64,000 nt of DNA from Tenericutes bacterium HGW-Tenericutes-2 (GTDB lineage Bacteria; Bacillota_I; Bacilli_A; Acholeplasmatales; Acholeplasmataceae), in the NCBI GenBank assembly GCA_002839095.1, contig PGXL01000002.1, forward strand, positions 1 to 64,000, in the 5' to 3' direction. The translations under genes and the position numbers were made by a program. How positions within the stretch are numbered: the stretch's first letter is position 1; each line of letters begins with the position of its first letter. The notes beneath the pieces were generated by a model, which worked only from the letters and a program-made list of their open reading frames with translations, was not told the DNA's origin and ran no database searches. This document shows positions 9,452 to 22,420 of the stretch, piece after piece.

Positions 9452-9645
9452 AGGAATAGAAACCCCAGAATTCCAAAGATAATGAGATAATATAAATTGA
9501 GTTTCATTGTCTTTTTAATTGTGAATATAACCTCTTTAGGTATCTTAATCTTTGTATATTTCTTAACAATCAATAATACAAACCATAAAATATTTAATAG
9601 TGCCCAGAATATGGATAGCCCAATGCAAATATATGCGATAATCAT
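9448..9645 (-). CDS. small membrane protein coupled to the kinase gene
   Basis: A 65-residue protein with two predicted membrane helices (about 3-26 and 50-65) joined by a lysine-rich loop. It has a clear ribosome site (GGAGGT, 5 bases from ATG) and overlaps both neighbours by ATGA junctions. No known family is recognised. Tight coupling to the kinase, which itself ends in hydrophobic helices, suggests a membrane complex; this is inference. Confidence 0.6.
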   Translation of the reverse strand: MIIAYICIGLSIFWALLNILWFVLLIVKKYTKIKIPKEVIFTIKKTMKLNLYYLIIFGILGFLFL

Positions 9646-12236
9646 GCGGCACCTCCAAAAATAAGTCGGTATAAATTAACAAAGAAGTCAACTGCGTTCT
9701 CAAAGAATTGAATGATAGCATCCAATCGAATAAAATTTTTCACCATTTCAAGCTTTTCTGCAAAATTGATTTGAGATAGCAATGCTTCAAGCTGATTAAT
9801 ACCTACAGTATTTAATACATAAATCATCATTACAATCAAGGTTGATAAAATTAAATGATTGAGTATCTTATTGGTGAATAGAAGCACATGGACAGCACCT
9901 TTTTTATTTTCTAAAACAAACTGTCTCATCTTTCCATGATCTTTTGTATCACCAGTTCCACAAATCGGACATTTGGTCATGCTTTGGTGGTAATAATGAT
10001 ATTCAGATGTTAAACACTTTTTACTTTCAAATGATAGCTTTGATAATGCACCTTGCCATTCATTTGGAGAGGTTCTGCTTATTTTATCTGGGTTAGTTAC
10101 AATCAAAGCTTTTCTCATTGCTCTTTGATAGTAGTTTGGGAATAGCTCTAATAGCTTCGCCTTTTCATCGATTTCAACTCCAGGAACTGTTTCCCTATGG
10201 AGGAAGTAGTTATTCTCAACAAAATAGGATAAAGGTTTACTCGCTAGCTTGTGGGTGCCCTTAAAAGGATGAGTATCCTGAAGTATCATATGGATGATGA
10301 CTGCTAAGTAGTATCTAATCGTTTGTTTACCTTTTGGTTCAAAAACAAACTCCTTAGGTGTTTCAGGAACAATCTCCTTAACCTTTACTTCCTTTTCAAT
10401 AACATTGTTTGATTTTTCAAATTCAAAATCTTCAACAGTGGTTGACGATTTGAGATCTATTATTTTTTCTTCTTTTTCAACCTTTTTTTCAACCTTCTTT
10501 TCTAAAGGTGAACGAATTAATTCTAAATCCTTTTTTCTAAGTTCTTCGAGACGTTTTCTTTCAAGCTCTCTTTCCTTTTCTTTTGCATCCTCTATAGTCT
10601 TTAAATACTTCTTATAGTTTTGTTCATAAAAGTATTCTTGAGGTAGATAGTCCTCTCTTTGGAAAACCATAGCCTTTGTTGTATCATCAAAAGATCCTAG
10701 GAAAACAAAATCAGGAATAAAGGGATTTAAATCCTTATCGATAAAGATTTGATTGAATTCAATGGGTATATTATATTTTTCAAGAGAAGAAAACATCGAT
10801 GCGATATTTCTAGCAACGATAATCTTCACCTTATCTGTAATCTTTAATTTACCAAGTCTATTATTTTTTAAAAACGTTTGAAGTCGATAAAGGTTTGGTA
10901 TTCTCTTACTGACATATCCTATGACCTTATCATGCTTCATAATAAGCTCTTGAGGAGGTGCGAAATAAGCAGGCATTTTTTGATAAACCTTTTCATTCTT
11001 TAACGCTTCAATGCGTGCTCCTAATTGATATTTATCAAGCATTTTAGGATTAAAAAAGACTGCTAAGCGTTTACTGTTCTTTAAGGTGTAGCTCTTACTA
11101 GCGAGTGTTTCGTCATATACATGATTCTCATCGACGATAATCTCTTTATCATCCGTATCATATTTGACATACTTTCTAGAAATCGTTTTAAAGTAATCTA
11201 ATAAATAATCATAGTCCTTTGTTTGTTCTCTAGCGCATATTGGACATTTTTGAAAATGATTGGGATAGAAATGTGCCTTATTTTTTTTACACTTTTTAAT
11301 GTTATCCTTTACAACTCTCAAACCAGCTGCCCATTCATCTGCTGTTGGTCTATTAACGACATCATTATGCTTATCAAATGCTCTTGTGAATAAATCTTGA
11401 ATTTGTTTTGGGAAGAAGCTAAAAGGCATTGAGTTCTTTGGAGGAATAATATTATTGTTTAAAGTACTATATGGAAATATTTCATGCTCCATATTGTAGT
11501 TAATCGCATTTCCATCAAAGCCCATCACACCCTTGATTCTTGCTGAAAATGGATGGACACCCATCATTAAAATCTGAAAGATCAATATTGCTAATCCATA
11601 GTTATCGTGATTTGGAATTCTTTTTGGTTCAACAGATGATTTCTTTTTCGCCTCAAAGACTTCTGGTGGTGTATAGTCTGGTGTAAATACCTTGCAGTGA
11701 TAAAGCTTTGATTCTGATGAAACCTGGAATGAATCTGTATCTACAACACCGATTTCAAATCCTGGATAGACAAAGAAGTCACTTGTGTTAATATCACCAA
11801 TGACAGTATCATTTTTATGAATAAAGCTCATGACCTTAGCTAAATTAATTGAAATCACTAGTCGGTCATACCAAGTAATATTTGGAAACTTTGTTTTTTG
11901 TAGTCCCGGGGTAATAACATGTGATAATTGATTCTTTGCTTGCACTCTACGCATTAAATAACCAATGAATTTTCTATTTTCATCATAAATGACATAGCTT
12001 GGCCAAGCAATAATTGTTAAACCATTATAATCTAGAAGACCTGGTTTCTTTTGAACCATCGCTTTAATTTTGTCTACAATTTCAGGCATTCTTTCTAAAG
12101 CGCGTTCTGTATAAACCTTAACTAAAATATTAGGATTTTTAGCAAGCTTAAAAACACTACCTTCACCACCGCTACCAATAGGTTTTGTATCATCTACTAA
12201 TATTTTAGAACCGTCCTCTAAATAGTACTTTCTCAT
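9642..12236 (-). CDS. Ser/Thr kinase-pseudokinase tandem with two zinc-binding motifs and membrane tail
   Basis: An 864-residue protein. Residues 1-310 form a kinase: glycine loop GSGGEGSVF (21-29), candidate Lys40, catalytic-loop GDIN (Asp148) and DTDSF (166-170) in place of DFG. A Cys/His cluster with CPIC (331-334) follows. Residues 385-540 and 635-735 repeat this order (IGYVSKR, YLPQE, HPF, NEW) but lack the catalytic Asp, then comes a second CPIC (756-759). A charged linker (about 540-635) splits the second copy. Two hydrophobic segments lie at 790-812 and 840-862. With the vWA and PP2C genes upstream this matches the TerY-phosphorylation triad described by Anantharaman, Iyer and Aravind. 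Substrates are unknown. Confidence 0.82.
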   Translation of the reverse strand: MRKYYLEDGSKILVDDTKPIGSGGEGSVFKLAKNPNILVKVYTERALERMPEIVDKIKAMVQKKPGLLDYNGLTIIAWPSYVIYDENRKFIGYLMRRVQAKNQLSHVITPGLQKTKFPNITWYDRLVISINLAKVMSFIHKNDTVIGDINTSDFFVYPGFEIGVVDTDSFQVSSESKLYHCKVFTPDYTPPEVFEAKKKSSVEPKRIPNHDNYGLAILIFQILMMGVHPFSARIKGVMGFDGNAINYNMEHEIFPYSTLNNNIIPPKNSMPFSFFPKQIQDLFTRAFDKHNDVVNRPTADEWAAGLRVVKDNIKKCKKNKAHFYPNHFQKCPICAREQTKDYDYLLDYFKTISRKYVKYDTDDKEIIVDENHVYDETLASKSYTLKNSKRLAVFFNPKMLDKYQLGARIEALKNEKVYQKMPAYFAPPQELIMKHDKVIGYVSKRIPNLYRLQTFLKNNRLGKLKITDKVKIIVARNIASMFSSLEKYNIPIEFNQIFIDKDLNPFIPDFVFLGSFDDTTKAMVFQREDYLPQEYFYEQNYKKYLKTIEDAKEKERELERKRLEELRKKDLELIRSPLEKKVEKKVEKEEKIIDLKSSTTVEDFEFEKSNNVIEKEVKVKEIVPETPKEFVFEPKGKQTIRYYLAVIIHMILQDTHPFKGTHKLASKPLSYFVENNYFLHRETVPGVEIDEKAKLLELFPNYYQRAMRKALIVTNPDKISRTSPNEWQGALSKLSFESKKCLTSEYHYYHQSMTKCPICGTGDTKDHGKMRQFVLENKKGAVHVLLFTNKILNHLILSTLIVMMIYVLNTVGINQLEALLSQINFAEKLEMVKNFIRLDAIIQFFENAVDFFVNLYRLIFGGAA

Positions 12237-12985
12237 TCATCTCTCACTTCAACAAATAGTAATGTTTTATCATCATCTGTTTTTTTATTAATTCGATCAG
12301 ACGCTAAAAATCTTTCTAGTGACTTTTGGACTTCCTCTTGATTGTAGTTTTCATGGGAAAACACCTTGAAAAAGGGATCATAAAACAAATGACTGACTGT
12401 CTTATCCTTAGCAGATATACTAATGGATTCAATACCATCACTCATTAACGCGATCATTGGATAAAACTTATCGCATTTTTCATAGATACCATTTTCAATC
12501 GATTCAAGATTACAAATGGAGAAGGTTGCGTTTGCGTATTCTCCTCTTTGTTGCTTCGCAATGACTTCATATTCATCTTCAATCTTGCCGATTGCTGCAC
12601 AATCGCCAACCTGACCATAATATTGAGATCCATTAAAGCTTACAAAAACCAAAAGTGTAGCATTTAAATCCTTAATATTCACTTCGTTAATTTTAGCAAC
12701 CTCAAGCAATTCATCATTGGTTTCTATAAAGCCTTCCTTTATCAAGGTGATGATATCTTCATCATCCATCTTGACATCTAAATGCTTTTCTAAGAAATTA
12801 ACGATAAAAGTAGAAGCTGTTAAGCTTCCTAGCTCTGCATGAGACGCACTGCCCATACCATCACTAACACATGCAATAAATCCTAATCCATTGGGTAGTA
12901 TTTGATAAGCGTGATTGTCATGACATGGTGTTTCTGTAGATAAATGCGAGGTGCCAACAACAGATGCACCATAAAGTCTAACCAA
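12233..12985 (-). CDS. PP2C-family protein phosphatase
   Basis: A 250-residue cytosolic PP2C/PPM phosphatase. Metal-binding motifs are CHDNH (Asp23), VSDGMG (Asp42, Gly43), LMSDGIE and DDDKT near the C-terminus. The first part, with CHDNHAYQI, resembles the phosphatases found beside TerY-like proteins. It should reverse phosphorylation by the adjacent kinase. Its stop overlaps the kinase start (ATGA), and it begins 3 bases after the vWA gene ends, so the three are made together. Confidence 0.88.
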   Translation of the reverse strand: MVRLYGASVVGTSHLSTETPCHDNHAYQILPNGLGFIACVSDGMGSASHAELGSLTASTFIVNFLEKHLDVKMDDEDIITLIKEGFIETNDELLEVAKINEVNIKDLNATLLVFVSFNGSQYYGQVGDCAAIGKIEDEYEVIAKQQRGEYANATFSICNLESIENGIYEKCDKFYPMIALMSDGIESISISAKDKTVSHLFYDPFFKVFSHENYNQEEVQKSLERFLASDRINKKTDDDKTLLFVEVRDE

Positions 12986-12987
12986 GA

Positions 12988-13686
12988 TTAGACCTCAAAT
13001 TCAAAGACATCATCACTTGGTTTTTCAAGCTTTAATGTATCTCCTACACGGCTTGATGAAACAGAAGATAATGATGAGGATACCCATTGGAAGAGTTCCT
13101 TAAAGTTTAGACCATTTAATTTAAAGACTCTATCCCCAGATCCTGAAATCTGGCGTAATCTTTCGATATTTGCATTTTCAACGCCGATACCAAAGAAAAT
13201 AACTTTTTTACCAGATATTGCATTTTGTAGCATTCCGCTTGCTTCACTGACGTTATCTGTTGGTTCACCATCAGTAATTACAAATAACCATGGTCTATAA
13301 TATGAAATACCAGCATTTCTGTATTCTGATTTTCTGTTTTCGATATTTCTAAGCGCTGTGACAATTGCTTCACCCATTGGAGTCATCCCATTGACCTTTA
13401 ATTCTGGAGCTTGAGATTCTGAAACGGTAGCAAAGTTTTGAACAACAGAGACACTTTGACCAAATGTAATCACCGATAAATCAACTCTCACACTTGCTAG
13501 ATCATCATCACGAAGTGCTGCATAAAGTGCGTGAACACCTTCATTGAGTTGGTTAATTGGATTACCAGACATGGAGTAAGAAGTATCAAGTAATAAAACG
13601 ACAGGGCATCGTGGTTCTGGATTATCCAGAAGGGCTTCATCAACGACTTCCTTTTCAAATTCAAAATCATTTCTTAAATCACTCAT
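12988..13686 (-). CDS. TerY-like von Willebrand factor A protein
   Basis: A 232-residue cytosolic vWA domain. The MIDAS residues are visible: DTSYS (34-38), Thr102 in GMTPMGE and Asp139 in ITDGEPTD. This is the TerY branch that pairs with PP2C and kinase genes in stress-linked phosphorylation systems. Oddly, the N-terminus holds DFEFEK, which also occurs in the kinase linker (about residues 603-608), and the C-terminus ends VFEFEV. GAGAGG lies upstream of the ATG. No TerC or TerD homologue is in the window. Confidence 0.88.
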   Translation of the reverse strand: MSDLRNDFEFEKEVVDEALLDNPEPRCPVVLLLDTSYSMSGNPINQLNEGVHALYAALRDDDLASVRVDLSVITFGQSVSVVQNFATVSESQAPELKVNGMTPMGEAIVTALRNIENRKSEYRNAGISYYRPWLFVITDGEPTDNVSEASGMLQNAISGKKVIFFGIGVENANIERLRQISGSGDRVFKLNGLNFKELFQWVSSSLSSVSSSRVGDTLKLEKPSDDVFEFEV

Positions 13687-14566: not shown

Positions 14567-15664
14567 TTACGCGTTTTCAATGATTGCTACAATTGGAATA
14601 AGAAGGAATGCTAACCAAGAGATATGAAATAGCTGGAAGAAATAACCTAAAGAGAAGAATAGAATAACTGCTATAAAAGGCATTAACGCTGTAAATCTAA
14701 TCTTGTCAAATGCAATGATCGCTACCATTGGAATGAATAAGAATACCTGCCATGCATATGCCCAGCCGTTTAATGCAAGTCCTAAAGCCAAGAATATAGA
14801 TGTTGTGATGACGACTACAGAAACCATAAAGATTGCTTTTTGTCTATATTTTCCTTCAAGTTGGTTATCCCATAAAATGTGGATATCTCCAAAAATAATT
14901 CCAACGATTAGAGGTAATGCAAATCCCAATGCACCATATCTCCATTCACCGTAAGTATATCCCATATATAGATAGAAGAGAATAGCTGCAATAAAGGATG
15001 CTTCATATAATAAAACCTTCCAAAGCTTTTTCTCATTTAAGATACCAATCATTGGAATACTTAGGAATACTAACCATCCTGGATTCCATAAATTGTAATA
15101 GGTTCCTAGAATAATAAATACAATAACAGATACAAATGGTGAGATTGCTACAAACACTTCCTTGAATCTAGTATGTAAAATGATGGATACCATTGGGATG
15201 AGTAAGAAGACAAGCCAACCTGGATGCCATAAACCAAATCCCCAACCTAATATTAAATAAGCAATAATACTTAAGAATGGTGATAAAGCAACAATCCCAT
15301 CTTTAAGTCTTGTATGTAGTGCAATCGATGTGATTGGAATCATTAAGAATACCATCCAACCTGGATGCCATAAATCATAATAGAATCCCATCACAAAGAA
15401 CACGATTAAGCTGATAAATGGTGTTAATGCTATGATTTTATTTCTCACACTTTTTTCTTTTTTAAGCTTTAATGTATCCATTAATTCATATGCTGCACTT
15501 TTAGGATCACCTAAAATGTTCCAAACCTCTTCATCCGTTTTACCTGTGCTTTTTGCATCGTTATAGAGCTGTTCATAGTCACTAACGATTTCATTAATTT
15601 CTGATTTACTTGCTTGAAATTCCTCTAATTGAGCTCTTAAACTGTTTAAATACTTATCCTTCAT
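14567..15664 (-). CDS. HAAS-domain protein with six repeated transmembrane modules
   Basis: A 365-residue membrane protein. Residues 1-75 match the HAAS (DUF1700-like) helical domain that accompanies PadR regulators (ILGDPKSAAYELM). The rest is six successive modules of about 45-50 residues, each with two helices. The first three are nearly alike (SPF-S-IVF-LG-YY-LWHPGWLVFL-IPM); the fourth is the most diverged. The start overlaps the padR-like gene by 11 bases. Such pairs usually govern membrane or envelope responses, but this protein's own activity is unknown. Confidence 0.8.
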   Translation of the reverse strand: MKDKYLNSLRAQLEEFQASKSEINEIVSDYEQLYNDAKSTGKTDEEVWNILGDPKSAAYELMDTLKLKKEKSVRNKIIALTPFISLIVFFVMGFYYDLWHPGWMVFLMIPITSIALHTRLKDGIVALSPFLSIIAYLILGWGFGLWHPGWLVFLLIPMVSIILHTRFKEVFVAISPFVSVIVFIILGTYYNLWNPGWLVFLSIPMIGILNEKKLWKVLLYEASFIAAILFYLYMGYTYGEWRYGALGFALPLIVGIIFGDIHILWDNQLEGKYRQKAIFMVSVVVITTSIFLALGLALNGWAYAWQVFLFIPMVAIIAFDKIRFTALMPFIAVILFFSLGYFFQLFHISWLAFLLIPIVAIIENA

Positions 15665-15977
15665 TTTCCATACCTCCTAATAATTTGAACACACCTTTTA
15701 AAAATGTTCTCCATTCGCTTTCATATTCGTTTAATTTTTCGTTACCTATATTTGTTATCTTATAATACTTTCTCGGTGCACCTATGTTTGTATTTTCAAT
15801 GTAGGTGTCGAAAAGTCCTTGTCCTGTCAATCTTCTTAAAATCGGATAGACCGTGTTCTCGTTGACATCAATTTCAGATGATAGCTTTTCTATGACTTCG
15901 AAGCCATACATATCGCGATCTCTGATAATGCTCAAGATACACATTTCTAGAATACCCTTTTTGAATTGTGTATTCAT
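15654..15977 (-). CDS. PadR-family transcriptional regulator
   Basis: A 107-residue winged-helix regulator: FKKGILEMCILSII, DMYGFEVIEKL and ENTVYPILRRLTGQGL are the standard PadR segments. It probably represses its own operon, since two palindromic sites surround its promoter. The ATG follows TAAGGAGG, which overlaps one operator half. The downstream HAAS gene overlaps and is coupled. The inducer is unknown. Confidence 0.9.
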   Translation of the reverse strand: MNTQFKKGILEMCILSIIRDRDMYGFEVIEKLSSEIDVNENTVYPILRRLTGQGLFDTYIENTNIGAPRKYYKITNIGNEKLNEYESEWRTFLKGVFKLLGGMENEG

Positions 15978-15982
15978 AATTT

Positions 15983-16038
15983 CCTCCTTACTGTGTGTTG
16001 CACACTACTATAATAACACCTTACTGTGCGAAACACAA
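15983..16038 (-). promoter_or_regulatory. PadR autoregulatory promoter with paired operators
   Basis: Two dyads, GTGTG-N3-CACAC (15993-16005) and TGTG-N5-CACA (16025-16037), flank a minus-strand TATTAT -10 box (complement at 16010-16015). The ten bases CCTTACTGTG occur at 15986 and 16019, exactly 33 bases apart, about three helical turns. Binding there would cover the -10 and the ribosome site region. Confidence 0.65.
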
Positions 16039-16085
16039 TACCCAAAATTAATTTTTTTTATTTTTTTATTTATGACATGGATATC

Positions 16086-16114
16086 TTGTCTTTTCAAAGC
16101 TTATATGATACTAT
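16086..16114 (+). promoter_or_regulatory. promoter of the tyrosine/shikimate operon
   Basis: TTGTCT (16086-16091) and TACTAT (16109-16114) are 17 bases apart, and the -10 is extended by TGA just before it. Predicted transcription start is near 16121, about 20 bases before the leader peptide start. It is divergent from the PadR promoter. Confidence 0.6.
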
Positions 16115-16141
16115 TATTTCAAACAAAGATAGGTGATATTG

Positions 16142-16186
16142 ATGTTAAATGTTAAAAAGGTTAGTTATTATTACGCATATCGTTGA
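16142..16186 (+). CDS. tyrosine-rich leader peptide of the aro operon
   Basis: A 14-codon frame, MLNVKKVSYYYAYR, ends at TGA (16184-16186). Four of its last six codons are Tyr (16166-16174 and 16178-16180). AGGTGA at 16131-16136 sits 5 bases before the ATG. It lies between the promoter and an attenuator-like terminator upstream of DAHP synthase and tyrA, exactly where a ribosome-stalling leader for tyrosine is expected. It is too short for standard gene finders. No homologue is claimed; the call rests on codon content, ribosome site and RNA folding. Confidence 0.75.
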   Translation: MLNVKKVSYYYAYR

Positions 16187-16191
16187 AAATG

Positions 16192-16280
16192 AGGATTGCA
16201 AAGGCATTCCTTTTTGAGTAATAAAGGAACAGCCAAACCATGACAAACGTTCATCCTTGGGGTTCCTCAGGGATTTTTTT
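16192..16280 (+). promoter_or_regulatory. tyrosine attenuator: competing RNA hairpins and terminator
   Basis: Four mutually exclusive pairings can be drawn. Hairpin 1:2 is AGGA-U-UGC (16192-16199) with GCA-U-UCCU (to 16211). Hairpin 2:3 is TTCCTTT (16207-16213) with AAAGGAA (16223-16229). The antiterminator is AGGAAC..CCAA..ATGA (16225-16243) with TCAT..TTGG..GTTCCT (16251-16267). The terminator is ATCCTTGGG (16253-16261) with CTCAGGGAT (16266-16274) plus a T run. A ribosome stalled at Tyr codons leaves segment 1 free, so 1:2 and the antiterminator form. A ribosome at the stop codon covers segment 1, so 2:3 and the terminator form. Confidence 0.72.
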
Positions 16281-16306
16281 ATTTAAAAACCAAAGGAGAA
16301 AAGAAT

Positions 16307-17326
16307 ATGATTGTTCAGATGAAAAAAGGTTCAACAAAAAGAGAGTTCGAAAAAATAGTAGAGTTTTTAAAAGCTAAAAAGTTAGACATCATGGATGCAA
16401 GCTCGGATGAAATTCGTGTCTTTGGTATTATAGGTGATACCACATCAATTGATCCTAGTGATTTATACGCATTTGAAGGTGTTAAAGAAGTTACTAGAGT
16501 TTCTACTCCATTTAAAAAGGCGAGTCGTAGCTTTAAAAAGAAGGATACAATTATCAAAATTGGTGATGATATCGAAATCGGTGGTGATCAGTTTGTGATG
16601 ATGGCTGGACCTTGTTCAGTAGAATCAGAGGAACAATTAAGAATTATTGCTAAGGCTGTTAAAAAGGCTGGTGCGACACTCCTTCGTGGTGGAGCATATA
16701 AGCCAAGAACTTCACCATACGCTTTTCAAGGCTTAGAATTAGAAGGCTTGAAGATACTTAGAAAAATTGGGGATGAAGTGGGATTAAAAATCGTTACTGA
16801 AATTCCAAGTGCTGACTTACTTCCTTTATTTGAAGAATATGTGGATGTAATTCAAGTTGGTGCAAGAAATATGCAAAACTTCCATTTAATGAAGGCTTTA
16901 GGTAAATCAACCAAGCCAATTCTATTAAAAAGAGGTTTATCAGCAACCATTGAAGAATGGTTAATGTCAGCCGAATATATTATGGCTGGTGGAAACGAAC
17001 AAGTCATCTTGTGCGAACGAGGCATTCGCACCTATGAAAAATATACAAGAAATACATTAGATATTAGTGCAGTATTAGCGGTAAAGGAGCTTTCACATTT
17101 ACCAGTCATTATCGACCCATCTCACGCAGCTGGTCGCTGGAGCATGATTGAAAAGCTTTCTCTTGCATCTCTTGCTGTAGGAGCACACGGGTTAATCGTT
17201 GAGGTTCATCACGATCCTGAGCATGCATTATCTGATGGAGCACAATCTCTAAAGCTTCCTAAGTTTCATTCAATGATGGATGAGCTTGAAAAAGTAGCGG
17301 TTGTATTAGGAAAGAAACTGAGATGA
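16307..17326 (+). CDS. aroF: 3-deoxy-7-phosphoheptulonate (DAHP) synthase
   Basis: A 339-residue type I-beta DAHP synthase that condenses phosphoenolpyruvate and erythrose 4-phosphate, the first shikimate step. Residues 1-75 form the ferredoxin-like regulatory domain known from Thermotoga and Bacillus-type enzymes, where it binds feedback effectors. The barrel begins near FVMMAGPCSVES and includes LRGGAYKPRTSPYAFQG, ILLKRG, CERGIRTYE and IIDPSHAAGR. AAAGGAG precedes the ATG. It is first in a seven-gene operon behind the Tyr attenuator, so tyrosine may control both synthesis and activity. Confidence 0.95.
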   Translation: MIVQMKKGSTKREFEKIVEFLKAKKLDIMDASSDEIRVFGIIGDTTSIDPSDLYAFEGVKEVTRVSTPFKKASRSFKKKDTIIKIGDDIEIGGDQFVMMAGPCSVESEEQLRIIAKAVKKAGATLLRGGAYKPRTSPYAFQGLELEGLKILRKIGDEVGLKIVTEIPSADLLPLFEEYVDVIQVGARNMQNFHLMKALGKSTKPILLKRGLSATIEEWLMSAEYIMAGGNEQVILCERGIRTYEKYTRNTLDISAVLAVKELSHLPVIIDPSHAAGRWSMIEKLSLASLAVGAHGLIVEVHHDPEHALSDGAQSLKLPKFHSMMDELEKVAVVLGKKLR

Positions 17327-18153
17327 AGATATTCGTTGTAGGACTTGGACTCATTGGTGCGTCCTATGCCGAGGGACTTCATCAAGCAGGACATCATGTC
17401 TATGGATATGATTTAATAGAAAAGAATATCGAAAAAGGGATCCATTTAGGATTTATAGAAAAAGATAATAGTTTATCAAAAATAAGTGTTGCAGATCTTA
17501 TCATTTTAGCTTTATATCCAAAGGATAATGTTGAATTCATTCAAAAAAATAAAAATTTATTGACTGCAGGTCAAATACTTACCGATGTCAGTGGTACGAA
17601 ATCATGGATGATGGATGAAATTGAAAAGATATTGCCAAATGGTATATCTTACACTTCGCATCACCCAATGGCAGGTCGCGAGTCCTCTGGATTTGAGTCA
17701 AGAAACTTTCATATATTTAAAAATGCGAATTTCATTATCGTCAAGGGTAAAAAAAGTGATAAGAATGATATTGGAGTACTTGAACTTGTCGCAAACAATC
17801 TGAAATTTGGTAAAATAACAGTAACAGATGCGAAAACACATGATGAGCTCATTGCATTTACATCACAGCTTACACATATACTTGCTGTGACTTTAATTCA
17901 AAGCGATCATTTAAAGGAAACTAAAGAAGCTACTGGAGACTCATTTAGAGACTTAACTCGAATAGCTAAAATTAATGAAGTGATGTGGACAGAACTTTTT
18001 TTAGAAAATAAAGACGCTTTAGTTACTAAGATTAATGAATTTATGACAGAACTTGTATACATTAAAGAGCTTATCCTTGATGATGATAAAAAGCGGTTAA
18101 TGAATTATTTAAAGGAAGCCAAAGAAAAGAGGAAATCCTTTGACATTTCTTAA
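17323..18153 (+). CDS. tyrA: prephenate dehydrogenase
   Basis: A 276-residue NAD(P)-dependent prephenate dehydrogenase converting prephenate to 4-hydroxyphenylpyruvate, the committed step to tyrosine. The Rossmann motif GLGLIGASYAEGL is at residues 6-18, and TSHHPMAGRESSG carries the catalytic His region. The length fits enzymes without an extra ACT domain. It overlaps the DAHP synthase stop by ATGA. No prephenate dehydratase for phenylalanine is in the operon, which makes tyrosine the evident end product here. Confidence 0.93.
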   Translation: MKIFVVGLGLIGASYAEGLHQAGHHVYGYDLIEKNIEKGIHLGFIEKDNSLSKISVADLIILALYPKDNVEFIQKNKNLLTAGQILTDVSGTKSWMMDEIEKILPNGISYTSHHPMAGRESSGFESRNFHIFKNANFIIVKGKKSDKNDIGVLELVANNLKFGKITVTDAKTHDELIAFTSQLTHILAVTLIQSDHLKETKEATGDSFRDLTRIAKINEVMWTELFLENKDALVTKINEFMTELVYIKELILDDDKKRLMNYLKEAKEKRKSFDIS

Positions 18154-19153
18154 GATGCCGAATTACGACATTTTCATCGAAGAAGATGGTTTATCCCATC
18201 TTGCAAAGCACATCAAAGAGGTTTATCCATATGATGATCTTTTTGTTATAACCGATCAAAATGTTTTTGATCTCTATAATGAAAAGTTGATTCAAGCATT
18301 AATTGGTTATAAATTGTCATTTGTCATATTACCTCCAGGTGAAAAATCAAAATCACTCGAGGTCTATCATCAAGCCATTCAAACCTTGATTGAAAAGGGC
18401 ATTAAGAGAAATCATTTAATTCTTGCTTTTGGTGGTGGTGTTATTGGTGATTTAGCAGGATTTATCGCTTCAACTCTATATCGCGGGATTTCATATATCC
18501 AAATACCTACCACACTACTTGCTCAAGTTGATAGTAGTATTGGTGGTAAGGTTGGTATTGATTTAAAGGAAGGTAAAAACTTGATTGGATCCTTTTATGA
18601 CCCAAAATTTGTTTTTATAGACCCTAGTTTTCTTAAAACGTTATCCAAAAGAGAATATAATAATGGACTAGCTGAAATGATTAAGGCTGGTTTGATTGGT
18701 GATAAAAAACTATATGCTTATCTACTTGAGCATGATACAGTAACAGAGACTGAAATCACAGAAGCAATTCAAGTGAAACGAAATGTCGTTCTAATAGATC
18801 CTTATGATAAAAAGGAAAGAATGTATTTAAACTTTGGTCATACCTTTGGACATGCAATTGAAAAGAAACATAAGTATGAAACCTACCTACATGGTGAAGC
18901 TATAAGCTACGGTATGTTAATCGCTCTTCAAATTGGTATCCAAATTGGAGAAACAAAAGAAGAACTCTATCAGGAGGTTAAAAAGCTACTTTTAGATAGA
19001 GGACTTGTTAAAGAACCACTACTTGAAATGGACGAGTATCGTGATGAAATCATTCACGATAAAAAGAATTTAGCAGATGGACTTCATTTCATTATTGTTA
19101 CTAAGCCTGGTGATGTAAAAACACATAAATTAAAGGAACTTGACATTCTATGA
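18140..19153 (+). CDS. aroB: 3-dehydroquinate synthase
   Basis: A 337-residue enzyme closing DAHP to 3-dehydroquinate with NAD+ and a divalent metal. PPGEKSKSLE, AFGGGVIGDLAGF, PTTLLAQVDSSIGGKVG and the metal-ligand region NFGHTFGHAIE are all present. I take the TTG at 18140 as start because AGAGGA lies six bases upstream; the ATG at 18155 is the alternative. The start lies inside the end of tyrA, giving a 14-base overlap. Confidence 0.93.
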   Translation: MTFLKMPNYDIFIEEDGLSHLAKHIKEVYPYDDLFVITDQNVFDLYNEKLIQALIGYKLSFVILPPGEKSKSLEVYHQAIQTLIEKGIKRNHLILAFGGGVIGDLAGFIASTLYRGISYIQIPTTLLAQVDSSIGGKVGIDLKEGKNLIGSFYDPKFVFIDPSFLKTLSKREYNNGLAEMIKAGLIGDKKLYAYLLEHDTVTETEITEAIQVKRNVVLIDPYDKKERMYLNFGHTFGHAIEKKHKYETYLHGEAISYGMLIALQIGIQIGETKEELYQEVKKLLLDRGLVKEPLLEMDEYRDEIIHDKKNLADGLHFIIVTKPGDVKTHKLKELDIL

Positions 19154-20412
19154 AGATTACCATCCAACCAACAAAACTTAAGGGAACACTTCAGGTGGTA
19201 TCATCTAAATCTCTATCACATAGGTATGTAATTGCTGCAGGTCTTGCTAAAGGGACAAGCACTATAAAAAATGCTTTAGATAGTGATGATTTGACTGCTA
19301 CAAAAAATGCTTTATCTGCACTTGGTGTAACATTCAATAACAATCAAGTCACAGGTGGAGAATTAAAAGTTATCCATAATGAAATAGATTGTAATGAATC
19401 AGGGTCTACCCTAAGATTTATGATTCCAATTTCTATGCTGCTTAGAGAAGAAATTAAATTTATAGGGCATGGCCGTCTACCCTTACGTCCCTTAGATGTC
19501 TATTTTGATATATTCAATCAAAAGCATTTATACTATAAAAAAGATAGTGAAGAATCCAATCTCCCACTCACAGTCAAGGGACCAATAAAACCAGGTTTCT
19601 ATCAAATGAGAGGTGACGTCAGCTCACAGTTTCTTACTGGTATGCTATTTGCATTACCACTATTAAAAAAAGATTCAGTCATCGAAATGACAACTCCAAT
19701 TGAATCAAAGGGCTATGTCGATTTAACACTCGATGTATTAAAAATGTTTGGTATACATATTTTATCAGTGGATCAATATTTTTACATCAAAGGTGGTCAA
19801 TCCTATCTACCTAAGGAAGTCACTGTTGAAGGCGATTTCTCTCAGGCAGCATTTTGGATGGTAGCTGGTTTAATTGGTGATGAAATTAATCTAAAAAGCT
19901 TAAACCCAATTAGCAAGCAAGGTGATGCAAAAATAGTAGATATTATAAAGGAAATGGGCGGAGATATTGAGTACATTGATCAAGATCGAATGTATAAAAT
20001 AGAGCCTAGTCAAACTGATGGTATCACTATAGATTTATCTCAGATTCCAGACCTTGGCCCAATACTCATGGTGCTTGCAGGACTGAGTGAAAAGAAGACT
20101 AAATTTATTGGATGTAACAGATTAAGAATGAAGGAATCTGATCGCCTAGATGCGATGTATCAAGTTTTAACAAAGTTTGGTGTTCCTATGGAAATAAGCG
20201 GTGATGAAGCCATTATCCAAGGTGTAAAATCTTTCAAAGGTGATTTAGAGCTAGATACATTTAGTGATCACCGGATTGCGATGGCAATCGCAATCGCTGC
20301 AATTCGTGCAGATGGTCCAATCACAATCAATCACGCAGAAGTCGTAAGTAAATCCTACCCGAATTTTTTTGAAATCTATAAGGAACTAGGAGGGCAAATC
20401 AATGAATCTTGA
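19150..20412 (+). CDS. aroA: 3-phosphoshikimate 1-carboxyvinyltransferase (EPSP synthase)
   Basis: A 420-residue EPSP synthase joining shikimate 3-phosphate and phosphoenolpyruvate. Visible motifs are SSKSLSHRY near the N-terminus, NESGSTLRFM, GDVSSQFLTG, and RLRMKESDRL with DHRIAMA near the C-terminus. Length is normal. It overlaps aroB by four bases. The shikimate kinase supplying its substrate is not in this operon. Confidence 0.95.
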   Translation: MKITIQPTKLKGTLQVVSSKSLSHRYVIAAGLAKGTSTIKNALDSDDLTATKNALSALGVTFNNNQVTGGELKVIHNEIDCNESGSTLRFMIPISMLLREEIKFIGHGRLPLRPLDVYFDIFNQKHLYYKKDSEESNLPLTVKGPIKPGFYQMRGDVSSQFLTGMLFALPLLKKDSVIEMTTPIESKGYVDLTLDVLKMFGIHILSVDQYFYIKGGQSYLPKEVTVEGDFSQAAFWMVAGLIGDEINLKSLNPISKQGDAKIVDIIKEMGGDIEYIDQDRMYKIEPSQTDGITIDLSQIPDLGPILMVLAGLSEKKTKFIGCNRLRMKESDRLDAMYQVLTKFGVPMEISGDEAIIQGVKSFKGDLELDTFSDHRIAMAIAIAAIRADGPITINHAEVVSKSYPNFFEIYKELGGQINES

Positions 20413-20656
20413 TGAACTAAGAAAAGCTATTGACGCAGTCGATACTGAAATGATGGAACTGTTTAAAAAGCGCATGGAACTCTCCTATATGGTAGGAGAA
20501 TATAAAAAGGAAAATCATCTACCGGTACTCGATTCCACAAGAGAAAAAGAGATATTGAAAAGTAGAAAAAATCAACTCGATGATCAATCATTATGGCCAT
20601 ACTATGAAGCATTTATAAAGGAAATTATGAAGCTATCGAAGGAGTACCAAAAATGA
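20402..20656 (+). CDS. chorismate mutase, AroQ type
   Basis: An 84-residue all-helical chorismate mutase domain converting chorismate to prephenate. The pattern LDELRKAIDAVDTEMMELFKKR, then VGEYKK and STREKEIL fits the AroQ-class monofunctional domain. It is free-standing rather than fused to DAHP synthase or prephenate dehydratase. GGAGGG precedes the ATG inside the end of aroA. It feeds TyrA encoded in the same operon. Confidence 0.9.
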   Translation: MNLDELRKAIDAVDTEMMELFKKRMELSYMVGEYKKENHLPVLDSTREKEILKSRKNQLDDQSLWPYYEAFIKEIMKLSKEYQK

Positions 20657-21441
20657 GCGAACGATATGGATTAATAGGAAAGAATATTAAATATTCAAAG
20701 TCTAGTCAAATTCATAATTTCATGGCGAAAAGGTTAGGCATCGATTTTAAGTATGACCTTTTTGACATTGATGAATCTGATATTTCCCATCTTTTTAAGC
20801 ATTTAAGAAATGGTGTTTTTAAGGGCTTTAACGTGACTGTCCCCTATAAACAAACTGTGATGAAATATGTAGATATTTTAACACCTAAGGCATCACGTAT
20901 ACGCGCTGTTAATACCATCTATTTGAAGAATGGAAAAATCGTTGGTGATAATACTGACTATGATGGATTTTTAGGATTGATCAGTCGGAATAGAATCAAT
21001 GTAAAGGATAAAAATGTCTATTTGCTTGGTGCAGGTGGTGCAGCAAAAGCTGCGTATATCGTCTTATCAGATTTAGGTGCGAAGGTCACTGTAGTTTCTA
21101 GACAAACCAATGATTTAGATCCATTATTTCAGCATGTAATTTCCTATCAAAAAATAGATCCATTTAAGGTAGATATATACGTTCAAGCAACTCCAATCGG
21201 AACATTTCCAAATGTGGAGGATTCCGTATTAAGTAAGGTTTATGTTGAAAATCAACTCGTTATCGATATGGTTTATAATCCTCCAATTACAAAGATTATG
21301 AAGGATGCTAAGCAAGGTATTAGTGGACTTTATATGCTAATCATTCAAGCAATTAAGAGTGAAGAAATTTGGTTTGATAGAAAAATTGACATTACAGATC
21401 GTCTTGTCGAAGAGTTAAAGGAAGTCATCTATCATGAATAG
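20653..21441 (+). CDS. aroE: shikimate dehydrogenase
   Basis: A 262-residue NADPH-dependent enzyme reducing 3-dehydroshikimate to shikimate. KYSKSSQIHNF, GFNVTVPYK (with the catalytic Lys), RAVNTIY, GDNTDYDGF and the nucleotide motif LGAGGAAKA are present. It overlaps the chorismate mutase gene by ATGA. Its substrate comes from 3-dehydroquinate dehydratase, which is absent from the window. Confidence 0.94.
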   Translation: MSERYGLIGKNIKYSKSSQIHNFMAKRLGIDFKYDLFDIDESDISHLFKHLRNGVFKGFNVTVPYKQTVMKYVDILTPKASRIRAVNTIYLKNGKIVGDNTDYDGFLGLISRNRINVKDKNVYLLGAGGAAKAAYIVLSDLGAKVTVVSRQTNDLDPLFQHVISYQKIDPFKVDIYVQATPIGTFPNVEDSVLSKVYVENQLVIDMVYNPPITKIMKDAKQGISGLYMLIIQAIKSEEIWFDRKIDITDRLVEELKEVIYHE

Positions 21442-22420
21442 CTATGGTACTCTTTTCAAAGTAACTTTATATGGCGAATCACACCAAGAAGCAATCGGTG
21501 TTGTTATTGATGGAATTCCTGCAGGTATTGAAATTAACGAATCAAAGATCACTGAAGATTTAATCAAAAGACAAGCAGGAGCAATTGGAACGACAACAAG
21601 AATAGAGCCTGATTTATTCAAGATTACATCCGGTGTATTTAAAGGATATTCGACAGGATCCCCCATTCATTTAATGATTGAAAACGTAAATACTAGATCA
21701 AAGGATTACGAGCATTTAATCAATCAACCTAGACCAGGGCATGCAGATTTCGTTTCCAATGTTAAATATAAAGGCTTTCAAGACTATCGTGGTGGAGGAA
21801 GATTTTCTGGTAGATTAACTGCAGCATTGGTTGCTGCTGGTGCGATTGCTAAGATGGTGATACCATTTGAATTATCTAATCAACTCATTCAAGTTGGAAC
21901 ACTAAAGGATATGTCAAAGATTGATGCATATTTAGAGGGTATAGCTAAGGATGGAGATTCTGTTGGAGGTTTAATCGAAGTTAAAGCGACTAACATGATT
22001 GTAGGACTTGGAGAACCATTCTTTAATAAGCTAGATGCTGAAATTGCGAAAATGATGTTTTCTATACCCGCTGTAAAGGGTGTTGAAATTGGTACAGGGT
22101 TTAAAGGCTTAGAAATGAAGGGTAGTTCTTTCAATGATGAGTTCATTGATGAAACTGGAAAAACGAAGACAAACCATTCAGGTGGAGTATCGGGTGGTAT
22201 TTCTAATGGAAATGATTTAATTGTTAAAGTCATGATTAAACCAACATCATCGATTCAAAGACCACAAGAAACCTATAGCTTTGAAACCAATCAAAAGGAA
22301 ATTCTTCAAATTGGTGGTAGACATGATGTCTGTATCGCTAGAAGAGCTGGTATTGTTTTAGAAAATGCATTGGCTATTGTACTTGCTGATTTATATTTGA
22401 TTAGTAAAGCCTATCACTAA
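21434..22420 (+). CDS. aroC: chorismate synthase
   Basis: A 328-residue flavin-dependent chorismate synthase, somewhat shorter than the usual 350-390 residues. TLYGESHQEAIGVVIDG, RPGHAD, YRGGGRFSGR and GGISNG match the conserved FMN and substrate segments, and a near C-terminal GGRHDVCIA..R is present. It is the last gene of the operon and overlaps aroE by eight bases. No clear terminator follows, so read-through into the DUF998 gene is possible. Confidence 0.93.
   Translation: MNSYGTLFKVTLYGESHQEAIGVVIDGIPAGIEINESKITEDLIKRQAGAIGTTTRIEPDLFKITSGVFKGYSTGSPIHLMIENVNTRSKDYEHLINQPRPGHADFVSNVKYKGFQDYRGGGRFSGRLTAALVAAGAIAKMVIPFELSNQLIQVGTLKDMSKIDAYLEGIAKDGDSVGGLIEVKATNMIVGLGEPFFNKLDAEIAKMMFSIPAVKGVEIGTGFKGLEMKGSSFNDEFIDETGKTKTNHSGGVSGGISNGNDLIVKVMIKPTSSIQRPQETYSFETNQKEILQIGGRHDVCIARRAGIVLENALAIVLADLYLISKAYH

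Follow-up and report, generated by a model that had tools for sequence, protein, structure and literature searches.

A putative tyrosine-codon attenuator ahead of the shikimate/tyrosine operon of an Acholeplasmataceae genome and its relatives

What controls the shikimate/tyrosine operon found in this window (the whole 64,000-nt stretch of DNA analysed here), and which amino acid does the controlling element sense? The genes lie in the order aroF-tyrA-aroB-aroA-aroQ-aroE-aroC, with neighbours overlapping by a few bases:

16307–17326, + strand: aroF, DAHP synthase, heading the predicted controlled operon (TIGR01361, NF006421)
17323–18153, + strand: tyrA, prephenate dehydrogenase (best matches are prephenate dehydrogenases, below equivalog cut-offs)
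18140–19153, + strand: aroB, 3-dehydroquinate synthase (TIGR01357)
19150–20412, + strand: aroA, EPSP synthase (TIGR01356)
20402–20656, + strand: aroQ, chorismate mutase (TIGR01805)
20653–21441, + strand: aroE, shikimate dehydrogenase (TIGR00507, just under cut-off)
21434–22420, + strand: aroC, chorismate synthase (TIGR00033)

The genome of this wall-less bacterium is 2.3 Mb in size and an estimated 99.9% complete. Its closest named relatives are MAGs, most of them under the label Acholeplasmataceae. Neither a prephenate dehydratase (pheA) nor a chorismate-binding enzyme such as TrpE is recognisable in it; the same searches were positive in 14 of 14 control genomes. Tyrosine is therefore the only aromatic amino acid product predicted for this organism. 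Several relatives that carry the element described below do have pheA, elsewhere in the genome, and the Tyr leader is kept there.

An earlier note on this DNA had placed a 14-codon Tyr leader, with a ribosome site and a promoter, ahead of the operon. All of these are present, and the same layout recurs before aroF in relatives:

16086–16114, + strand: predicted promoter, read from the sequence; TTGTCT (16086–16091), 17 nt, TACTAT (16109–16114), with extended −10 TG-A-TACTAT
16131–16137, + strand: Shine-Dalgarno sequence AGGTGAT of the leader frame, from the sequence
16142–16186, + strand: leader frame MLNVKKVSYYYAYR, 14 codons, ATG at 16142 and TGA at 16186; relatives have a Tyr-rich leader in the same place
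16166, 16169, 16172 and 16178, + strand: Tyr codons within the leader frame

The promoter scores under the cut-off of a promoter-prediction tool; its TTGT...TGATAC core is aligned and conserved in relatives. An AGGTGA-like ribosome site precedes nearly all of the leaders compared. No frame behind a ribosome site and with at least four Tyr among six codons arose in 5000 dinucleotide shuffles of 16086–16306, and the leader is one of two such short Tyr-rich frames in the 64 kb. By sequence, a short frame with a ribosome site, predicted to be translated, stands ahead of the structural genes. A divergent gene for a PadR-family regulator (15654–16070) starts 5′ of the operon promoter. Repeated ACTGTG/CACA dyads in the intergenic region, which the closest genera share and others lack, are likely to be the regulator's own operator. 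The regulator may provide a second layer of control on the aro promoter.

The codons of the leader point to tyrosine as the sensed residue. Our first comparative set comprised 51 leaders, 47 of them distinct, and Tyr codons are conserved in 51/51. Over the last nine codons, the distinct leaders have on average 4.2 Tyr (range 2–6) and 0.47 Phe, and Trp codons occur nowhere in these 47 leaders. Tyr is encoded by TAT (150) and TAC (52), which interchange, suggesting that the amino acid is kept rather than the base. The conserved codons are those for the product of the operon, which includes tyrA. Spacing is similarly constrained. Measured to the GG of segment 1, one of the pairing arms listed below, the distance is 20–29 nt for the first Tyr codon, 14 nt (median) for the last and 3–9 nt for the stop codon (47 distinct leaders). 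If the ribosome is taken to extend ~12 nt beyond the first base of the A site, it would cover the start of segment 1 in 47/47 leaders when standing at the stop codon, and in 42/47 would leave that start free or barely touched when standing at the last Tyr codon. The ruler argument of the earlier note, in which a Tyr stall ends short of segment 1 and a ribosome at the stop codon covers it, holds across these 47 leaders, and with this spacing a ribosome that has stalled and one that has finished would select different folds.

Downstream of the Tyr codons, and reaching back into them, are several arms with competing partners:

16159–16177, + strand: segment 0, leader codons that pair with 16215–16234 if untranslated (fold, permutation and recoding tests)
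16192–16199, + strand: segment 1, AGGATTGC, partner of segment 2, exactly where the earlier note had put it (sequence comparison)
16203–16213, + strand: segment 2, GGCATTCCTTT, partner of segment 1 or 3 (sequence comparison)
16224–16236, + strand: segment 3, AAGGAACAGCCAA, partner of segment 0, 2 or 4 (sequence comparison)
16251–16266, + strand: segment 4, 3′ side of the antiterminator, overlapping the 5′ arm and loop of the terminator (covariation)
16253–16280, + strand: intrinsic terminator, hairpin 16253–16274 plus U-run (terminator prediction)

Helix 1:2 consists of AGGAUUGC / GGCAUUCCUUU, helix 2:3 of GGC.UUCCUU / AAGGAA..GCC, helix 3:4 of GGAAC..CCAA / UUGG.GUUCC, and the terminator stem of AUCCUUGGG / CCUCAGGGAU. 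The terminator, as claimed, lies just before the DAHP synthase gene and tyrA; no other was detected on the two strands of 15950–16320 (0.1 expected in shuffles). The total folding energy of the region is not distinctive with respect to shuffles (z −0.85), so that the evidence for the element is comparative. Within the closest genera the element is nearly invariant in sequence, leaving too little variation for covariation to be informative on 1:2 and 3:4, and a wider set was used for that reason. In this set, the outer antiterminator pair changes from GGAAC/GUUCC in the window to GGACA/UGUCC in L031, GGAGAU/AUCUCC in L142, GGAA.UGU/ACAUUCC in L143 and GGAAG.CC/GG.CUUCC in L170. Antiterminator arms paired with their own partners average −12.7 kcal/mol, versus −9.3 when partners are swapped between groups, and 0/5000 permutations were as good; by the same test, 1:2 was matched in 4/5000 permutations and 2:3 in 14/5000. 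Double-sided changes number 27, as against 5.0 in shuffles, in a structure-fitted alignment, which favours its own structure; the swap test is independent of alignment. All 5/5 outer pairs of 3:4 (GGAAC/GTTCC) have double-sided changes. Antiterminator and terminator are mutually exclusive, and covariation accompanies them. Relatives were where the earlier note had proposed to look for conserved Tyr codons and paired arms, and both are conserved there, the arms changing in compensation, in support of its attenuator reading. Taken together, conserved Tyr codons, fixed spacing and covarying helices make Tyr-dependent, ribosome-mediated attenuation very likely.

The four alternative hairpins proposed by the earlier note are present, and a fifth pairing was missed. 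In the fold of the window RNA, 16159–16177 pairs with 16215–16234, enclosing the 1:2 hairpin. In the closest genus, folding places codons ahead of and inside the Tyr block (GCTGTTTATTATTACGC) opposite GCGAATAAAGGAACAGC; in f4, it places UUUUCCUAUUA opposite UAAUAGGAAA. Segment 0 and segment 3 pair better with their own partners than with swapped ones (0/5000 permutations as good). The 0:3 pairing is also stronger with the native codons than with synonymous recodings, with a Fisher combined p of 6e-9 for 19 representatives and a p of 1e-4 for one sequence per group, both values being optimistic owing to the relatedness of the sequences. In two genera, g13 and g14, segment 0:3 is weak or missing. 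These results suggest that pairing of the Tyr-codon region with segment 3 adds an off state in the absence of translation, and that the element is a three-state switch.

In the switch that we propose, segment 3 would be the arbiter, with three partners. A ribosome waiting at a Tyr codon would cover segment 0 and leave segment 1 free, so that 1:2 forms; segment 3 would then pair with segment 4, the terminator would be blocked and the operon would be read. When tyrosine is ample, the ribosome would reach the stop codon and cover segment 1, whereupon 2:3 would form and the terminator would end the RNA. With no ribosome present, segment 3 would be taken by segment 0, with 1:2 enclosed between them, and the terminator would form too. 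The operon would be on solely while a ribosome occupies the Tyr codons. Leader, Tyr codons, spacing, covarying arms and terminator all emerge from the comparison of sequences; what we infer is ribosome occupancy, a tyrosine response, the kinetics and an off state without translation.

Folding with ribosome footprints agrees with this scheme in part. For the window RNA, P(terminator) is 0.92 without a ribosome and 0.92 with a ribosome at the stop codon, and falls to 0.12, 0.54, 0.58 and 0.72 as the ribosome is set on the four Tyr codons in turn; the constrained folding suggested by the earlier note thus gives lower values at Tyr codons than at the stop. Means for the closest genus are 0.94 without a ribosome, 0.69 at Tyr codons (0.41 at the best codon) and 0.93 at the stop, and the footprint contrast exceeds that of shuffles in several relatives. 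In many relatives, however, the terminator wins in every state at equilibrium. A Tyr stall falls >0.1 below both other states in only 18/51 leaders, and A. laidlawii-like leaders show no contrast between ribosome states in equilibrium folding. As a proof of switching, equilibrium folding therefore serves for the window and some relatives only. In partial transcripts, the mean number of antiterminator pairs is 9.8 with a ribosome at Tyr codons, 7.0 at the stop and 5.6 without a ribosome, yet the pairs formed ahead of a complete terminator tell the states apart in no more than 32/51 leaders, a group to which the window sequence does not belong. Because both kinds of folding fail in many relatives, kinetic trapping, i.e. 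folding during transcription, would have to be assumed.

A simpler device is conceivable, one with two states, in which the untranslated RNA reads through by default and 0:3 plays no role. Helix 1:2 alone would leave segment 3 free, and the weakness of 0:3 in g13 and g14 would be in keeping with such a device. Against it stand the covariation of 0:3 across groups, the preference for native codons over synonymous recodings, and the untranslated fold, which terminates (mean 0.93). We regard the two-state device as doubtful. Our own assessment is that the element is probably a natural attenuator specific for tyrosine, whose Tyr-codon region is at the same time a pairing arm, so that the operon is on only with a ribosome there.

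Alternatives to tyrosine as the signal also deserve consideration. It has been proposed for the same motif that the speed of phenylalanine incorporation sets the terminator (Brewer et al. 2021), and some leaders do contain one or two Phe codons, e.g. that of A. laidlawii, MFINQAYYYFYQM. But Phe is missing from the last nine codons in 28/47 distinct leaders, all of which have Tyr there, the operon holds tyrA rather than pheA, and the window's genome offers no recognisable prephenate dehydratase; a purely Phe-dependent attenuator is very unlikely. A sensor of both Tyr and Phe might operate in species that keep pheA, such as relatives of A. laidlawii with Phe between Tyr codons. Several element-carrying genomes encode pheA, and in g2, g3 and g4 and in some leaders of f4 an F occurs inside the Tyr block, but over the whole set Tyr outnumbers Phe by 199 residues to 22 in the last nine codons. 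Composition alone is not decisive in this matter, since C. glutamicum AroR, with its Phe-Tyr-Phe, reportedly answers Phe and not Tyr (review, PMC11802643). We think mixed sensing unlikely, though less so than sensing of Phe by itself. The strong sequence conservation of segments 1–3, and the abundance of T-boxes in this genome, could be taken to indicate a small-molecule riboswitch or a T-box overlapping a fortuitous frame. Yet no Rfam family reaches threshold here, whereas RF00230 finds T-boxes elsewhere in the genome; mutually exclusive pairing explains the conserved bases, whose changes are compensatory; and the conserved frame, Tyr codons and spacing would be left unexplained. Such an overlap is extremely improbable. 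On the sequence evidence, we are confident that the shikimate/tyrosine operon is controlled by a ribosome-mediated transcription attenuator with charged tRNA-Tyr as its signal.

The motif itself has been described before. According to Brewer et al. (2021, PMC8632094), uORFC-13-1 has 24 representatives, from Acholeplasma and environmental sequences only, and lies exclusively before aroF, with a promoter, ribosome site, start codon and an intrinsic terminator directly after; control by phenylalanine incorporation is tentatively suggested. By that description it is the same as the window element, and a further paired element is reported there as well. Consistent with this, A. laidlawii (L036) and A. 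oculi (L037) have the leader frame before a terminator upstream of aroF. Our account differs in naming tyrosine, in the multi-partner switch, and in a range of several genera and three families. The 2021 description reduces the novelty of the element; what is new is the assignment to tyrosine, the covarying scheme of several partners with its Tyr-codon arm, and the wider range. The published assignment would be corrected from phenylalanine to tyrosine, and the motif extended from one genus to three families. The element is not in Rfam 15, and no further paper naming uORFC-13-1 was found in the literature searched, which took in few subscription journals. A preQ1-II match in Rfam (E 0.41, below cut-off; gathering and permissive thresholds) was set aside as chance. 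The earlier note had called a Tyr-specific version in a Mollicutes-like genome unusual; a search of the literature outside most subscription journals returned no report of a tyrosine-specific leader-peptide attenuator, but the motif had already been published with a Phe reading. Tyrosine would join the amino acids sensed by stalled ribosomes. The presence of the element in A. laidlawii should put a direct test within reach.

Among known systems, the attenuators of the E. coli trp, his and pheA operons are similar in having a short leader rich in product codons, alternative hairpins, an intrinsic terminator and ribosome position as the signal, and their untranslated RNA, too, is predicted to terminate. 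They sense Trp, His and Phe, rather than tyrosine. In the E. coli attenuators the stalled state works via 2:3, whereas in the window element a stall would act through 1:2 plus 3:4, and its leader codons form a helix with segment 3 that encloses 1:2. The aroR-aroF region of C. glutamicum (Neshat et al. 2014; PMC11802643, PMC4046766) likewise has a leader peptide with aromatic residues before a DAHP synthase gene; its host is an actinobacterium, and the leader, with Phe-Tyr-Phe, is reported to respond to Phe, not Tyr. T-boxes resemble the window element in that tRNA charging controls a terminator, but there the RNA itself does the sensing, in place of a translating ribosome.

Finally, the element is not confined to the genus of the window. 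In the window's family, nine genera (g1–g4, g10, g12–g15) have it directly before aroF, at 46 genes in all; in g5, g6, g8 and g9, aroF copies or fragments lack it or their upstream regions were not read. A second family of the window's order is divided, with the element present in genus g25 and missing from g24, g26 and g27, and a third family of that order (f2) lacks it. A model built from the wider set found it in f16, a family of another order, where 12/30 inspected aroF loci show the same arms and terminator behind a leader that contains Tyr; in the other 18/30, aroF follows directly behind another gene, with no leader. All convincing matches lie before aroF and none before another gene. 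The weak matches elsewhere that were inspected (L213, L218–L220) are plain terminators or chance. In part of f16 (L251, L252), the Tyr leader extends across segments 1 and 2 to end shortly ahead of segment 3, so the geometry differs and the finishing ribosome's route to termination would change.

Tyrosine operons were listed as T-box regulated in a 2005 survey (PMC1262725). In the sister family f2, a T-box precedes a second aroF copy (L197, reverse strand 103–346), with no leader attenuator, and L198 has a similar T-box-like sequence below cut-off. For one and the same gene, related bacteria would thus rely on different ways of sensing tRNA: one lineage, two solutions, with ribosome sensing of tyrosine on one side and a T-box before aroF on the other. 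The window's genome (G000) has twelve T-box matches elsewhere, eight of them above cut-off; T-boxes are available, yet not used for this operon. Elsewhere in the window, at 9642–13686, three adjacent minus-strand genes may encode a kinase-like protein, a PP2C-like phosphatase and a von Willebrand A-type protein, a trio that by eye resembles a TerY-type phosphorylation triad.
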